Positions 20,908 to 28,737 are shown, counted from the stretch's first letter. The stretch is 36,211 nt of DNA from Psychrobium sp. (GCA_013214905.1 JABSRV010000015.1:1-36211); one strand, 5' to 3'. Notes: generated by a model not told the origin, from the letters alone. Numbers and translations: made by a program.

Positions 20908-22029
20908 TTAATTTGCCGGGTAAAAAGCGCCTAAAATTGCCGCTTTATTGGCACCTGTAACGCGTGGTAGATTACTGGTTAATTTATTGATAAAACAATA
21001 GGCTAACCAAGAAAATGCAATGCCTTCTACCCACTGTGGCGCCAGGCCAAGGTCATCAGTAGAACCCACATCAGTCAATGGCATTAATTGCTTGAGTCGC
21101 GTCAATAAATCGTCATTAAAAACACCACCACCGCAAACATAAAGTTTATTAACCTGTGCTAATGGCAATATAGATTGGGCAATGGACTGAGCCGTCAGTT
21201 GAGCCAAGGTCGCTTGCACATCTTGTGGCGCTAAGTGGTTAAACTGTTGCAGTTGCTGCGTTAGCCAACGTGCGTTAAATAATTCTCGTCCGGTGCTTTT
21301 AGGCGCCGCTTTGGCAAAATATGGCTCGTCTAACATGTGCTGTAATAGCGCCTCATTAACCGCGCCGGTTGCCGCCCATTGTCCGCCATCATCATAAGGT
21401 TGCTGATGATGTTTTTTGTGCCAATAATCGAGCAGCGTATTGCCAGGGCCCGTATCAAAACCAAGTGTCTTGTCGGGATCCTTATCAAGCAATGTAATAT
21501 TAGCGATACCGCCAATATTTAAAATCACTCTATTTTCAACCTTGCTTTGAAATAGCTGTTGGTGAAAAGCTGGCACTAGTGGTGCGCCTTGTCCGCCTAA
21601 CGCAATGTCTTTACGACGAAAATCAGCGACAGTATCGATGTTTGTCATTACCGCAATGGTGCTAGCATCACCTATTTGCATTGAAAAAGGGTATTGGGCA
21701 TCGGGCATATGACGGACGGTTTGGCCGTGAGAGCCAATGGCAATTATTTGACTAGCTTCTATGCCAGCGTGATGCAATAACTCGATGGTAGCGAAGGCAA
21801 ATAATTCACCACAAGCGCGATCGCATTGCCCCAATAAATTAATATCGTTGCATTGGGGGTCGGCTAAGCGATGTAATTTTTCTAGCAGGGACGGGGTTAT
21901 CGGTTTGTCGTGACTAGCAATAAGTTTAGGAATGCCACTGGCGAAATCAACTAAGACCGCGTCAACGCCATCCATGCTGGTGCCCGACATCAAACCTACA
22001 TAATATTGAGGTGCGGCGCTATTACTCAT
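20908..22029 (-). CDS. anmK: Anhydro-N-acetylmuramic acid kinase
   Basis: YYVGLMSGTSMDGVDAVLVDF...IGSHGQTVRHMP...VILNIGGIANITLL...GFDTGPGNTLLD. Confidence 0.96.
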   Translation of the reverse strand: MSNSAAPQYYVGLMSGTSMDGVDAVLVDFASGIPKLIASHDKPITPSLLEKLHRLADPQCNDINLLGQCDRACGELFAFATIELLHHAGIEASQIIAIGSHGQTVRHMPDAQYPFSMQIGDASTIAVMTNIDTVADFRRKDIALGGQGAPLVPAFHQQLFQSKVENRVILNIGGIANITLLDKDPDKTLGFDTGPGNTLLDYWHKKHHQQPYDDGGQWAATGAVNEALLQHMLDEPYFAKAAPKSTGRELFNARWLTQQLQQFNHLAPQDVQATLAQLTAQSIAQSILPLAQVNKLYVCGGGVFNDDLLTRLKQLMPLTDVGSTDDLGLAPQWVEGIAFSWLAYCFINKLTSNLPRVTGANKAAILGAFYPAN

Positions 22030-23428
22030 TGCTAGCTAGCATAATGCGTTTATTGGTGGCTAGTTGCGCCATCCTATTATTCGCGATGCTTAAGAATGCA
22101 GCTTTTTGTTTTTTCGCCAGTGATTGTGATTTTGGTAATTTAACCGTGCGCGGATTACGGTGAGATCCGTTAACCAAAAACTCATAATGTAAGTGGGCGC
22201 CGGTGACTCGTCCGGTAGAACCCACAGTACCAATGCGTTGGCCTTGCTTAACCTTGGCGCCTTTTTTGACGTACTTTTTGGTTAAATGCAGGTATTTGGT
22301 TAGATACTTTTCACCGTGTTTAATGAAAACGTAATTACCATTATATTTACTATATGCCGACGCTATTACGGTTCCTGATCCGGCTGCCATTACCGGTGTA
22401 CCGCGCTTCGCTGCGTAATCAATGCCGTTATGGGCACGAATTTTACCAGTGACTGGATGCTTGCGGCGTGGATTGAAATTAGAACTAATATAGTTAAATT
22501 TTACCGGTGTGCGTAGAAATGCTTTACGCATGCTGCGCCCTGTCGCTGAATAATATTCGCCATCAGTATGTCTAATTGCTTGATAACTTTGACCTTGGTT
22601 GATGAACTCTGCCGCCAAAATGTTACCGGTCTTTACTTCAACGCCATCTAAAAACTTGCTTTCATAGATAATATTAAATTGATCACCTTTACGAATATCT
22701 AAGGCGAAATCGATATCCCAACCAAAAATATTAGCCAAATTCATGATCAAAGAAGCTTCAATGCCAGCTTCTATACCTGCATTCCAAAAATTACTACTGA
22801 TAACGGCGCTGGCCATTTTCTCACGAGTTTCTAATTGAGCGGTAAATTGAGACGCTTGATAGCCAGTATCTGTTTTGACAATTTCTAAGCGATTAATAAA
22901 ATCTTGTTGGTAGGTAAGCTTAATCAGTTGTTTTTTTGCGTTAGCGCCAAAATGAATAATTTGTCCCGGCATTATTTTTTTGAGGCTAGCGGTTGCTTTG
23001 CCAAGACTGGTAATACGATGCAGGGTTGTGGCGCTAAAACCAGCACGAGAGAATATTAAAGCTAAATTGTCACCGGACTTCACTTTCACTTGCTGCCAAG
23101 TCAACTTGTCGGCTGGCTCAAGGTCGATAGCTTGGTCGTTATTAACCGTCACCAACGAATCTTTACTGTGTGTTGTGCGCAACTTAGTCGCGGTATTTGC
23201 AGGCGTTGGCTGGGCCAAATTAATCGCAGAGCCGACCTCACCATCATTCATTTGCTGTGGCATACGCACTTCATAACGAGTGGCTATGGCAAGTGAATCT
23301 TCGCCGCCAGATATTTTAGACGCCTTGGCATCTTCACTGGGCAGTAAAAATAAAAGGCCAGTAATCACACAGACAGTAATTAGCAACTGTTTATGGCGAC
23401 GTGGCAATTGATGATAAATATGAGTCAT
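22022..23428 (-). CDS. mepM: M23 murein DD-endopeptidase (MepM/YebA-like)
   Basis: N-terminal OapA-like/LysM-like region; HNGIDYAAKRGTPVMAAGSGTV...GAHLHYEFLVNG M23 motifs; overlaps anmK by 8 bp. Confidence 0.92.
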   Translation of the reverse strand: MTHIYHQLPRRHKQLLITVCVITGLLFLLPSEDAKASKISGGEDSLAIATRYEVRMPQQMNDGEVGSAINLAQPTPANTATKLRTTHSKDSLVTVNNDQAIDLEPADKLTWQQVKVKSGDNLALIFSRAGFSATTLHRITSLGKATASLKKIMPGQIIHFGANAKKQLIKLTYQQDFINRLEIVKTDTGYQASQFTAQLETREKMASAVISSNFWNAGIEAGIEASLIMNLANIFGWDIDFALDIRKGDQFNIIYESKFLDGVEVKTGNILAAEFINQGQSYQAIRHTDGEYYSATGRSMRKAFLRTPVKFNYISSNFNPRRKHPVTGKIRAHNGIDYAAKRGTPVMAAGSGTVIASAYSKYNGNYVFIKHGEKYLTKYLHLTKKYVKKGAKVKQGQRIGTVGSTGRVTGAHLHYEFLVNGSHRNPRTVKLPKSQSLAKKQKAAFLSIANNRMAQLATNKRIMLASNE

Positions 23429-24554: not shown

Positions 24555-25883
24555 TTATAAAATGATCTTTAACCGTTGCTTTGGTTGCAGTGGATTGTTA
24601 GTCGACAAACGATTCCAGCGCACTATATCTTGCACTTTTACCTTATATTTTCGACTTATATTCCACAAGTTGTCCCCGTTTTTCACAATGTAAACTAATC
24701 GCTCTTTTCTCACCTTAGCGCTTTGCCATGGGTGCAGCTGTGCACTCACGTACGGCACAACTAACGTTTGGCCAATTCTAATTCGACTTGATGACAATCG
24801 ATTTAGTTTTTTTATGCCCTCTACCGTTGTGCCAACCCGCCGCGCAATCACACTTAAGCTATCGCCTGATTTAACGACATGGCGATGCCAGCGAAACCAA
24901 TCTTTTTTATTTATTGACTCCAGTTTTTGTCTAAATTTACTTTCCACCACTGCAGGGATCATTAACTGGTATTGACGATTGGGTGCGGTAGCCCATCTAT
25001 TATATGCAGGATTAAGACGCAGCAATTGTTTAGGAGTCATATTGGCCCACTCTGCCGCCAATGTAAGATCGAGCTGACTATCAAGTTCTATCAACGCCAC
25101 CGCTGGCTTATTAGCGATAGGGGTAAATGTATAATTGAGCGCCTTAGCATGTTGTAATATATCTGCGATCGCTAGCAATTTCGGCACAAAATCAGACGTT
25201 TCTGACGGCAAACGCAGCGACCAGAAATCAATAGGCTTATGCTCTCGTTTATTTTTCTTGATCGCTCTACCTACGCGCCCTTCCCCCGAATTAAACGCGG
25301 CAATCGCATTAAGCCAATCTTGACCTAAGGTTTTGTGGAAGAACTGAAAATAATCTAATGCAGCGCGAGTTGATTGCACAATGTCACGTCGATCATCAAC
25401 CCACCAGTTTTGGTGCAAGTCAAAGCGCTCACCTGAGATAGGCATAAACTGCCATAAGCCAACCGCTTTTTTATGTGATACGCCATAGGGAATATATGCG
25501 CTTTCAACAATAGGCAGTAGCGCGAGTTCTACTGGCATGTTGCGCTTTTCCAGCTCGGTCACAATGTAATATAGAAAAGGTTCGGCGCGTTTGGAGATAG
25601 TCACCATAAAATTAGGATGACTTAAATAATATTGTCGCCATTTCTCAACGGCCTTATTGCGCGGTACTTTAATACTTAACTGACTGCGTATACGCTGCCA
25701 CACATCGTCATGTTGATGAGGTTTTTTGGCGATAATAACAGGCTGACCTATCGGTTCTTTAATGAATTCAGGTACATTAACCACCTTTTTTTCCACTGTT
25801 GTTACCGATTGCGGCGTTTGCTGACACGCACTAATGCTCAGTAACAAACTCAATGTTAAGGTTACTAATAAAGGTTTTTTCAT
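24555..25883 (-). CDS. mltD: Membrane-bound lytic murein transglycosylase D with LysM repeats
   Basis: Lipobox LSISAC; LPIVESAYIPYGVSHKKAVGLWQFMPISGERFDL...AFNSGEGRV; two C-terminal LysM modules (VKSGDSLSVIARRVGTT; VKNGDNLWNISRKYKVK). Confidence 0.95.
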   Translation of the reverse strand: MKKPLLVTLTLSLLLSISACQQTPQSVTTVEKKVVNVPEFIKEPIGQPVIIAKKPHQHDDVWQRIRSQLSIKVPRNKAVEKWRQYYLSHPNFMVTISKRAEPFLYYIVTELEKRNMPVELALLPIVESAYIPYGVSHKKAVGLWQFMPISGERFDLHQNWWVDDRRDIVQSTRAALDYFQFFHKTLGQDWLNAIAAFNSGEGRVGRAIKKNKREHKPIDFWSLRLPSETSDFVPKLLAIADILQHAKALNYTFTPIANKPAVALIELDSQLDLTLAAEWANMTPKQLLRLNPAYNRWATAPNRQYQLMIPAVVESKFRQKLESINKKDWFRWHRHVVKSGDSLSVIARRVGTTVEGIKKLNRLSSSRIRIGQTLVVPYVSAQLHPWQSAKVRKERLVYIVKNGDNLWNISRKYKVKVQDIVRWNRLSTNNPLQPKQRLKIIL

Positions 25884-25923
25884 GGATAAATTCTTTTTAT
25901 TGTAATGTAAAATGGAATGCAAA

Positions 25924-26811
25924 CTATCGCGGCGCGCAATCGCTCGCCACTTTACAGTGACCTAACGCCCAATACAATCCTTGAATGGCAGTGGTTGGGA
26001 ATGCGGTTTGATGATTGGCACCAGCAATAATTACCAATTTTGTGTGCAAGTTTGGTTGCTGCCACGCCGCCATGTTGTGATAAAATGTTTTCGCGTCTTG
26101 CACCATGTCATAATGACTCTCTTGTTTTTTGTTTTCGCGATCACCTATCGCAATAAACACATTGGCATTAATGCTTGGCATGTTCTTTTTAAATTGTTGC
26201 TCTAAACGAAAGATAAATTGATCATTAAACCAAAATGATGGGCTGCCCAAAATGTAGTTTTTAAATAGCTGCGGTTTAGTCATCAACATGTAAGCGCCAA
26301 ATAGCCCCCCTAATGAATTGCCAACAAAGGTACGGTTACTCTTATCAACTCGGTAGTTATCTGCCATGTATTTAAAGACGACATTTTCAATGAACGCCAT
26401 ATGCAGGGGCGCGCCTCCGGTTTCTTTACGCCACGATAATGCCTTAATTGGCGTGTAATCAAACACTCGGCTATGATCACGTTTTGATCTTTTGGCATAA
26501 GAAATACCGACAATGATCGCTTGATCCATTTTTTTCACATTCATTGGATAGCGTGTCGCGCCAGAAACGATTTGAAAGGCGTATAACGCATCGGTTAAAT
26601 AGATCACCGGATACTTTTTGTCACTATTTTGGGTGTATGTTTTTGGTAATTTGATAAACAATGGATATACCCGTTTACTCACGGGATCGGTAACATCGAT
26701 GACTGCGCTGCGCGGTATGCTAAAGGCTTGCTCATTTGCCATTGTAGATGGGCTAAACGAGCATAAAAACATGATCAATAATAACGATGTAATGGCAGTT
26801 AAATGTGACAA
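25924..26811 (-). CDS. Secreted alpha/beta-hydrolase esterase (enterochelin-esterase/esterase D-like)
   Basis: Signal peptide; YPVIYLTDALYAF...TFVGNSLGGLFGAYMLMTKPQLFKNYILGSPSFWFND nucleophile elbow GNSLGG. Confidence 0.88.
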   Translation of the reverse strand: MSHLTAITSLLLIMFLCSFSPSTMANEQAFSIPRSAVIDVTDPVSKRVYPLFIKLPKTYTQNSDKKYPVIYLTDALYAFQIVSGATRYPMNVKKMDQAIIVGISYAKRSKRDHSRVFDYTPIKALSWRKETGGAPLHMAFIENVVFKYMADNYRVDKSNRTFVGNSLGGLFGAYMLMTKPQLFKNYILGSPSFWFNDQFIFRLEQQFKKNMPSINANVFIAIGDRENKKQESHYDMVQDAKTFYHNMAAWQQPNLHTKLVIIAGANHQTAFPTTAIQGLYWALGHCKVASDCAPR

Positions 26812-26843
26812 AGAAAATTCCTTAAACGCTAATGAGTAAATAA

Positions 26844-28280
26844 TTATAGATTGTTCACGAGCGCTAACATCTCGCTAGGATCGATGCGCTGCTCCCCTTC
26901 AATCAATTCAAAATGTAAATGAGGGCCCGTCGTTCGCCCTGTAACGCCAACCGTCCCTATTTTTTGGCCAGCGGTAATATATTCATCCACGCTAACATTG
27001 AAACTATCTAGGTGTGCATAAAGGGTATGTTGGCCATTGTGATGTTTAATGAGCACCACCTTGCCATAATTTTTATTAAGGCTAGTCGTATCAGCACTGA
27101 CCACTATTCCTGCCAGACTAGCAGTGACTTTGGTACCTAAAGGCGCTGCAAAATCAATGGCCTTATGTGCTTTATTCCCGCGAAAACTACTGACATGGCC
27201 AAAACCAGAACTGATCCTTGCATTAGTAATTGGCAGTGCCCCTTGCTGAACGGACCATAAATCGCTAACAATAATAAAGGGTTTTGCGCCAACAGAACTC
27301 ACCAACACCATAAACACGGTTAGTGATAACAATAAAAGATGCCATGTATTAAACGATTTACTTGGCGTAGCCGCCATAGTAAGGCGCAAACGCGTTTCAA
27401 ACTGCTGCTTATTGGTATGGGGATCGGCGAAGTTCGAGCTTATCAGTTGATCTGACTGGCGCCGGCTTTGTTTCAGACTCGCGATTAAGGCTTGGGCATA
27501 TTGCAGCTTATTTTTAGGGTCTTGGCGTAGTACATCAGCATCACAATTAATTTCCATTTGTAGTAAAAATCGCTGTTCTAATAGCGCAATGAATGGATTA
27601 AACCAGCACAACGCTGAGATAAATCGCATCACGATAACCGATTTGGGATCCCACCGTTTGCAATGATTAAGTTCATGTTCAATTAACAGTCTTTGCGCAC
27701 TACCTTCCATCTCAAAGACGTAATTAGGCAACACCAATGTATGGCTAAATAGTCCACAAACAAAGGGCGATATAGATTGTTCACTCTTAACAACCTTAAT
27801 AGAATGCCGTGAAATAGTTGCCTGTTGCGCGGCCGTGGCGCTGCGTAATACATCAATGGGTGTGCATTGATTAACGAGTTTTCTTAGCTGATTTAGCGCG
27901 CGAAAAAAACGACAAAGATGAACCACGGTGCCAATCAATACCCCCGCCATGACCGCGAACAAGATAAGCGGCGTGAACTCATATTCGATAATATCGTGGC
28001 TTAGTTTGTGTGCTAACAAAGGCTGTAAATTGTCGACTTGCCATGGCGATTTTAAGACGTCAGGAATGAATGCATTGACCTCTCTACTAGGCTGTACAAT
28101 AAAAGGCGCAATAGCTAATACAAAAATAGCTTGCCACCAACGTGACCACTGGCCCAAGGCAGGCCGTAATTTATTCATAAGCAATGCGATGGCTAGTAAT
28201 AATGCGCTCCAGCCAACAAACATTAAAAGTTGTAATAATAACGCGTAAGTTATCGTCTCAAAATGCATGTTATGACTCAT
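26844..28280 (-). CDS. M56 (BlaR1-like) membrane metalloprotease fused to C-terminal M23 endopeptidase domain
   Basis: Multi-TM N-terminus, LLIEHELNHCKRWDPKSVIVMR (HExxH), ISSGFG...HKAIDFAAPLGTKV...GPHLHFELIEG (M23). Start probably 28280 or 28268, overlapping or abutting the upstream BlaI gene. Confidence 0.92.
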   Translation of the reverse strand: MSHNMHFETITYALLLQLLMFVGWSALLLAIALLMNKLRPALGQWSRWWQAIFVLAIAPFIVQPSREVNAFIPDVLKSPWQVDNLQPLLAHKLSHDIIEYEFTPLILFAVMAGVLIGTVVHLCRFFRALNQLRKLVNQCTPIDVLRSATAAQQATISRHSIKVVKSEQSISPFVCGLFSHTLVLPNYVFEMEGSAQRLLIEHELNHCKRWDPKSVIVMRFISALCWFNPFIALLEQRFLLQMEINCDADVLRQDPKNKLQYAQALIASLKQSRRQSDQLISSNFADPHTNKQQFETRLRLTMAATPSKSFNTWHLLLLSLTVFMVLVSSVGAKPFIIVSDLWSVQQGALPITNARISSGFGHVSSFRGNKAHKAIDFAAPLGTKVTASLAGIVVSADTTSLNKNYGKVVLIKHHNGQHTLYAHLDSFNVSVDEYITAGQKIGTVGVTGRTTGPHLHFELIEGEQRIDPSEMLALVNNL

Positions 28281-28653
28281 TACCGTCTTGTGCTTGTTGC
28301 AACTCTTTAAGCAGTTTTTCGAAATCTTCAATTTCATGTTCATTAATCAGCTTACTATCTGCAAACATGGCGATCGGTAATGGCCCGTCAATTTCAAAAA
28401 TTCGTTTGGCAAAGTCTTGCGCGTAACATGCTAGGGTTTTGACCTTGTCGATTTTGGCAAAATAAATTTTCTTGTTGCCTTGAGAGGCTACGCTAACGAA
28501 CGCTTTATCACCCATGCGCTCTAGCGTTTTACGGGTTGAAGAATAGCTCCAACCAAGCAAGGGCTCTATTTGGTCGTGCAGTTGACGCGCTGTTTGCGGT
28601 TCGAGATGCCACAACAGCTTAAGTATTTCTAATTCAGGGTTAGTCGGTTGCAT
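28270..28653 (-). CDS. BlaI/MecI/CopY-family repressor
   Basis: MQPTNPELEILKLLWHLEPQTARQLHDQIEPLLGWSYSSTRKTLERMGDKAFV; the annotated upstream GTG (28704) lies in the palindrome, so ATG 28653 is preferred. Confidence 0.9.
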   Translation of the reverse strand: MQPTNPELEILKLLWHLEPQTARQLHDQIEPLLGWSYSSTRKTLERMGDKAFVSVASQGNKKIYFAKIDKVKTLACYAQDFAKRIFEIDGPLPIAMFADSKLINEHEIEDFEKLLKELQQAQDGNES

Positions 28654-28686
28654 TACAGTTTCTTTATTATTATCAACAAGCTGATT

Positions 28687-28704
28687 GTGCGACAAGTGTC
28701 GCAC
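28687..28704. promoter_or_regulatory. Candidate BlaI operator 1: GTGCGACA-AG-TGTCGCAC
   Basis: Perfect 8-bp inverted repeat, 2-bp spacer, just upstream of the BlaI ATG. Confidence 0.65.
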
Positions 28705-28719
28705 TTAAGCAAGGGCATT

Positions 28720-28737
28720 CTGCGACAAGCGTCGCAG
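28720..28737. promoter_or_regulatory. Candidate BlaI operator 2: CTGCGACA-AG-CGTCGCAG
   Basis: Near-copy of operator 1, centre-to-centre 33 bp. Confidence 0.65.

Follow-up and report, generated by a model that had tools for sequence, protein, structure and literature searches.

In the BlaR1–BlaI and MecR1–MecI systems of Staphylococcus and Bacillus, a BlaI-type repressor adjoins an M56 membrane protease with the signature HExxH...ExxxD...Arg, an arrangement shared by the locus described here. BlaR1 places its sensing domain outside the cell and its M56 site inside, cleaves BlaI directly, and undergoes autocleavage with Phe284 at P1′ (PMC9834060). A preliminary description of the DNA analyzed here treated M56/M23 fusions as a recognised class, and the combination is indeed recorded in a review of M23 peptidases, among fusions with other catalytic domains that together account for <1% of hits (PMC9662197). 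The review gives no function, neighbor, operator or output for this domain pair, and in the open-access literature searched we found no study of an M56/BlaI module with an M23 domain or a lytic transglycosylase. Here we describe such a module in a 36,211-nt stretch of Psychrobium sp. DNA (GCA_013214905.1 JABSRV010000015.1:1-36211; hereafter the window), where blaI, an M56–M23 fusion gene, an esterase gene and a gene for an MltD-type lipoprotein form, in transcription order, a single tight minus-strand run at 24555-28737. Gene order, a putative operator, intact catalytic sites, predicted topology and the association of a second MltD with the module point, at the level of sequence, to a BlaR1-type switch that probably reads peptidoglycan with an intact M23 domain in the sensor position and controls its own wall-hydrolase operon. 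The four genes are:

28270-28653, minus strand: blaI, a winged-helix repressor of 127 aa with an ATG start (Pfam Penicillinase_R, E 4e-19).
26844-28268, minus strand: the M56–M23 fusion, 474 aa, a membrane protease with a predicted periplasmic M23 peptidase (Peptidase_M56, E 4e-31; Peptidase_M23, E 9e-31).
25924-26811, minus strand: a secreted BES/IroE-like esterase (PF00756, E 4e-18), 32 bp beyond the fusion.
24555-25883, minus strand: the operon mltD, encoding a second MltD, a lipoprotein (SLT, E 2e-22; two LysM; lipobox LSISAC), 40 bp beyond the esterase.

These genes are separated by gaps of 1, 32 and 40 bp and are presumably co-transcribed; the fusion ATG lies 1 bp past the blaI stop codon, and the two genes overlap if an upstream ATG is taken. 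The preliminary description had reported four packed same-strand genes at this place and intact HExxH, HxxxD and HxH motifs in the fusion; the genes are there with clear domain calls, and all of the motifs are intact. Searching the order (296 genomes) and a class set (369 genomes), we recovered the full fusion in 16 genomes of several families, 13/296 from the order (its own genome included) and 3 more from the class set. With a single fusion protein as query, one Clostridia M23 relative was the sole match. The comparison of gene neighborhoods proposed for such fusions places a BlaI gene directly upstream in all 16 genomes, overlapping or a few bases apart, and conservation across genomes rules out chance adjacency of the operon genes. 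Conservation of the longer gene order held in part: mltD follows the fusion in the four congeners with a readable locus, and this link is confined to one genus. One congener (G006) had seemed to carry the operator and BlaI without a fusion, a reading we rejected as the fusion there is masked (N) after residue ~134; the masked stretch (L064 1-4501) covers most of the fusion and the downstream part, and this genome was set aside. A candidate BlaI–M56–M23 triple fusion, a 629-aa frame in L102 (G307), was likewise rejected, BlaI there being encoded by its own gene, which overlaps in a different frame.

The family profile of the fusion matches residues 3-345 of the S. aureus BlaR1 structure, covering the whole of the membrane protease part, and beyond it matches structures of M23 proteins. 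Its parts, including the predicted transmembrane helices (TM1–TM4), map as follows:

27429..28223, minus strand: the M56 region, TM1–TM3 plus the protease part (PF05569), from the family profile against BlaR1 (8exp) residues 3-345.
27663..27677, minus strand: HExxH (HELNH), residues 198-202, invariant in 16/16.
27381..27467, minus strand: the counterpart of the autocleavage loop, residues 268-296, with Phe280 (equivalent to BlaR1 Phe284) and Arg293, disordered in the model.
27285..27347, minus strand: TM4, residues 308-328, a predicted helix, followed by a linker of ~20 residues.
26877..27170, minus strand: the M23 (LytM-type) domain with His368, Asp372, His419, His450 and His452 (PF01551), its fold matching DipM, StM23, ShyA and LytM.

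Across the 16 fusions the HExxH, the ExxxD and the Asp-pairing Arg are all invariant, and the Phe counterpart of the BlaR1 autocleavage P1′ residue is retained in 15. The five M23 catalytic residues (HxxxD, the catalytic His and HxH) are likewise invariant in 16/16, down to ~24% identity. The AlphaFold model (mean predicted local distance difference test score 77) contains helices at residues 3-34, 42-52, 99-133 and 308-328, which can be TM1–TM4; the loop 272-284 around Phe280 is disordered, and the M23 domain begins ~20 residues past the last helix. The best Foldseek matches to the model are M23 domains. Domain, profile and fold searches found no penicillin-binding (class D-like) sensor domain in the fusion, only the M23 domain after TM4, and because this sensor domain is lacking we do not class the fusion as a BlaR1 beta-lactam sensor. 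By analogy to BlaR1 topology, the M23 domain would be periplasmic, where it would cut peptidoglycan cross-links. It shares its fold and all five catalytic residues with the M23 endopeptidases LytM, MepM, ShyA and DipM. Unlike in ShyA or Csd3, it is joined to a membrane M56 protease and not to their N-terminal domains, and it would differ from other M23 endopeptidases in being regulated by the repressor of its fused protease.

The BlaI profile covers the structures of MecI and BlaI from end to end, and the recognition helix carries the signature SSTRKTLERM. A Phe equivalent to S. aureus BlaI Phe102, the P1′ residue of BlaI cleavage, is kept in 16 of the 17 BlaI proteins, and M56 would cleave BlaI there, the predicted cut falling before Phe97 (counting from MQP). 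Upstream of blaI we found two dyads, which we refer to as O1 and O2:

28721..28736, no strand assigned: O2, the distal operator dyad, which reads TGCGACGCTTGTCGCA on the blaI strand and lies 33 bp away from O1.
28688..28703, no strand assigned: O1, the proximal operator dyad, a perfect TGCGACACTTGTCGCA that falls between the inferred −35 and −10.
28684..28712, minus strand: the inferred blaI promoter, −35 TTGCTT, 17 bp, −10 CACAAT, spanning O1.

A putative dyad operator precedes blaI in 17/17 readable loci (the 17th being the one masked further on, in G006), and in 15 of these it corresponds to TGCGACA-NN-TGTCGCA with ≤1 mismatch; the variants are TGCTACATTTGTAGCA in G023 and GGTGACATATGTCGCC in G644. 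In most loci the dyad fills the −35/−10 spacer, with TTGAC before it, and we assigned the window promoter because TTGAC occupies the same place in most relatives; the window −35, TTGCTT, is weaker than this TTGAC, a good −35. The 33-bp spacing of O1 and O2, about three helical turns, recurs in G001, G007, G008, G254 and G059, with 34 bp in G006, so that tandem dyads at 33–34 bp occur in six relatives' loci and the window genome, in this genus as well as in G254 and G059. Together, the comparison of loci supports autoregulation by BlaI at a conserved putative dyad operator. In G023 (L034), the variant operator TGCTACATTTGTAGCA lies 41 nt before blaI and the recognition helix reads STTRTVLERM vs SSTRKTLERM, perhaps one instance in which operator and helix changed together.

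The preliminary description had called the regulon not obvious. By pattern matching with ≤1 mismatch in its own genome and in G283, G215, G173, G255 and G084, we found no non-coding dyad outside this operon in its own genome; each of the four further matches there falls in a reading frame, among them those of ftsH, a glutamate-synthase-like gene and an efflux-pump-like gene (names read from the sequence), and the matches elsewhere in the other five genomes are also all within reading frames. We take these coding-frame matches to be chance. Two distant genomes indicate a wider reach. In G549, blaI and an M1 peptidase–esterase pair are divergent, with the dyad between them (M1 gene L101 6240-7626), and in G273 two dyads lie right before an M1 peptidase gene (L104 4925-6364) on a contig other than that of the fusion. 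This M1 peptidase family was found in only these 2 of 21 searched genomes, and is dyad-marked in both. Because the same dyads precede M1 peptidase genes, once far from the fusion, they support the dyad as a BlaI site; the G273 gene is likely a regulon member in trans, and the regulon therefore appears able to extend beyond the operon.

Among the ten genomes of the genus compared, the core MltD is present in all, and the second MltD in four, always behind the fusion; it occurs in 0/5 congeners without BlaI and the fusion (masked G006 excluded). The one-sided exact probability for 4/4 vs 0/5 is 1/126, uncorrected for kinship. The operon MltD forms a clade apart from the core MltD with support of 100/100, and against PRK10783, the E. 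coli-type MltD equivalog, it scores 350 bits, under the cut-off of 508, making it MltD-like. Comparison thus supports a link between the module and a lytic transglycosylase. The esterase most resembles enzymes of the siderophore type (BES/IroE), and it is also encoded near the module in G008, G254, G059 and G549. As a co-regulated output, proposed in the preliminary description, it does lie in the operon run, but relatives occur elsewhere in congeners, outside the operon and without a dyad; we rejected a module-exclusive esterase and regard it as a weaker member, apparently only loosely tied to the module. In other genomes the gene or genes after the module encode an esterase, a PF00144 beta-lactamase-family protein plus an esterase, a polysaccharide deacetylase (twice) or a TonB-dependent receptor, or there is none. 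The PF00144 protein lies between fusion and esterase in G059 (L028 5906-7096), and the deacetylase genes stand directly after the fusion in G644 (L103 3287-4243) and G023 (L034 3385-4473), genomes of two unrelated families. In G283, G215, G084 and G255 the gene after the fusion is convergent, which leaves the pair without a downstream output gene, and these four genomes contain no further non-coding dyad at ≤1 mismatch. BlaI and M56–M23 are there the only known products of derepression, and this is our chief ground for the view that the M23 domain is perhaps an effector as well as a sensor.

We propose that at rest a BlaI dimer would occupy one or two TGCGACA-NN-TGTCGCA dyads overlapping the promoter and keep its own operon repressed. 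The M23 domain, close to the inner membrane, would read nascent or loose peptidoglycan, and the trigger would be its engaging, or failing to find, its peptidoglycan substrate; both this signal and its direction are what we infer. TM4 would relay the change to the M56 site in the cytoplasm, and this site would cut BlaI before the conserved Phe. Derepression would then supply more M56–M23 hydrolase, and in this genus also the dedicated second MltD and the esterase, until wall structure is restored. This scheme keeps the M56/BlaI proteolytic switch of the preliminary description and its lytic transglycosylase, both supported by comparison of genomes, gives the esterase a lesser place, and adds that the M23 domain may itself be an effector, which had not been considered. 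A bolder form, which we hold tentatively as a possibility short of even, would make M56–M23 a wall hydrolase, the sensor of its own substrate and the controller of its own gene all at once, a two-gene feedback controller of cross-linking in which M23 catalytic engagement sets M56 activity and hence the BlaI level, and to which outputs such as the second MltD were recruited later.

Several observations weigh against the proposed peptidoglycan-reading switch. The G059 fusion has no autocleavage Phe, and in G644 the scissile position of BlaI is occupied by Leu. BlaR1 is not among the Foldseek matches listed, and the kinship to BlaR1 comes from sequence profiles. The window −35/−10 is by itself a weak match and is absent from the promoter scan list. 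The count of 4/4 vs 0/5 is small and includes close genomes (G001, G007) with kinship uncorrected. Finally, in several loci no gene running in the same direction lies close by, and the link to mltD holds in one genus only, so a wall-remodeling output is not universal.

Four other explanations partly overlap, and the likelihoods we give them are not meant to sum to one with that of the proposed switch. The stand-alone pairs in G283, G215, G084 and G255, whose own dyad is their sole non-coding one, favor the best-surviving of these, in which M23 is an effector only, a membrane-anchored endopeptidase restrained by the repressor of its own operon, with the signal entering via the membrane, another periplasmic loop or protein turnover. 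The conservation of all five catalytic residues in 16/16, unneeded by a pure binding sensor, also favors it; we nevertheless consider it rather unlikely, since the M23 domain sits exactly at the position of the BlaR1 sensor, past TM4 and a short linker, and one protein doing both sensing and cutting is simpler. The same fully conserved catalytic set and the same output-free loci make it improbable that M23 is a pure sensor that binds peptidoglycan or a compound aimed at the wall and does not cut, with mltD and other hydrolases providing all output, even though the BlaR1 sensor is itself an enzyme-like domain used in sensing (PMC9834060) and many loci are accompanied by accessory hydrolases. 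We give a similarly small chance to a resistance cassette, in which the module would respond to an antimicrobial that acts on the wall, and its esterase, M1 peptidase, beta-lactamase-family protein, polysaccharide deacetylase and MltD would, as hydrolases, inactivate this compound or harden the wall: the outputs vary by genome and are secreted hydrolases, and the distribution is patchy (13/296 genomes of the order), but no output is common to all loci and several loci have none. Least likely of all, a cytoplasmic peptidoglycan fragment would relieve BlaI, with M56–M23 and MltD feeding the fragment pool instead of cleaving BlaI, as the reported direct binding of a gamma-D-Glu-diamino acid dipeptide to Bacillus licheniformis BlaI and Staphylococcus MecI would allow (PMC3305447), but the same assay showed no activity for anhydro-muropeptides, which lytic transglycosylases produce, BlaR1 cuts BlaI directly (PMC9834060), and this module retains both the Phe of the autocleavage loop and the scissile Phe of BlaI.

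Returning to the proposed switch, its resemblance to BlaR1–BlaI and MecR1–MecI appears to extend to the autocleavage-loop Phe, the scissile Phe of BlaI and a dyad at the repressor's own promoter. Unlike those systems, it has an intact M23 domain in place of the penicillin-binding sensor, a TGCGACA half-site, and an operon without a beta-lactamase or PBP2a gene, a domain search of the operon having found neither a beta-lactamase nor a low-affinity penicillin-binding protein gene. What is new for the M23–M56 combination is the description of a candidate dyad operator, a BlaI neighbor and putative outputs, with a proteolytic half that would work like BlaR1. Gram-negative bacteria must balance wall cutting against wall synthesis, and how they directly read the state of their peptidoglycan is largely an open question. 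If our reading is true, a BlaR1-type switch that senses through an active wall-cutting domain would read peptidoglycan directly, and the BlaI/M56 platform would be a general signaling scaffold and not a beta-lactam device; the defined putative operator and the dedicated lytic transglycosylase make the switch easy to test.

The same genome contains two more BlaI and M56 pairs, at L001 1098-2694 (with C-terminal TonB_C) and L003 1030-2988 (with ankyrin repeats). As with the fusion, the repressor gene immediately precedes that of an M56 protease whose C-terminal domain is swapped; unlike the fusion, these pairs have other C-terminal domains, other recognition helices (KTVKTLLSRM and TSVQTMCKIM) and upstream dyads that differ from those of the fusion operon. 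A single genome thus has M56 proteases that carry different, swapped C-terminal domains, with apparently separate operators. Downstream of the operon, the next gene encodes a UvrY/GacA response regulator, and beyond this uvrY-like gene, ~1 kb past mltD, lie, at window 20908-23428, genes for a Csd3/MepM-type M23 endopeptidase and for a protein resembling the anhydro-MurNAc kinase AnmK (named from reading the sequence), placing more peptidoglycan genes close by.

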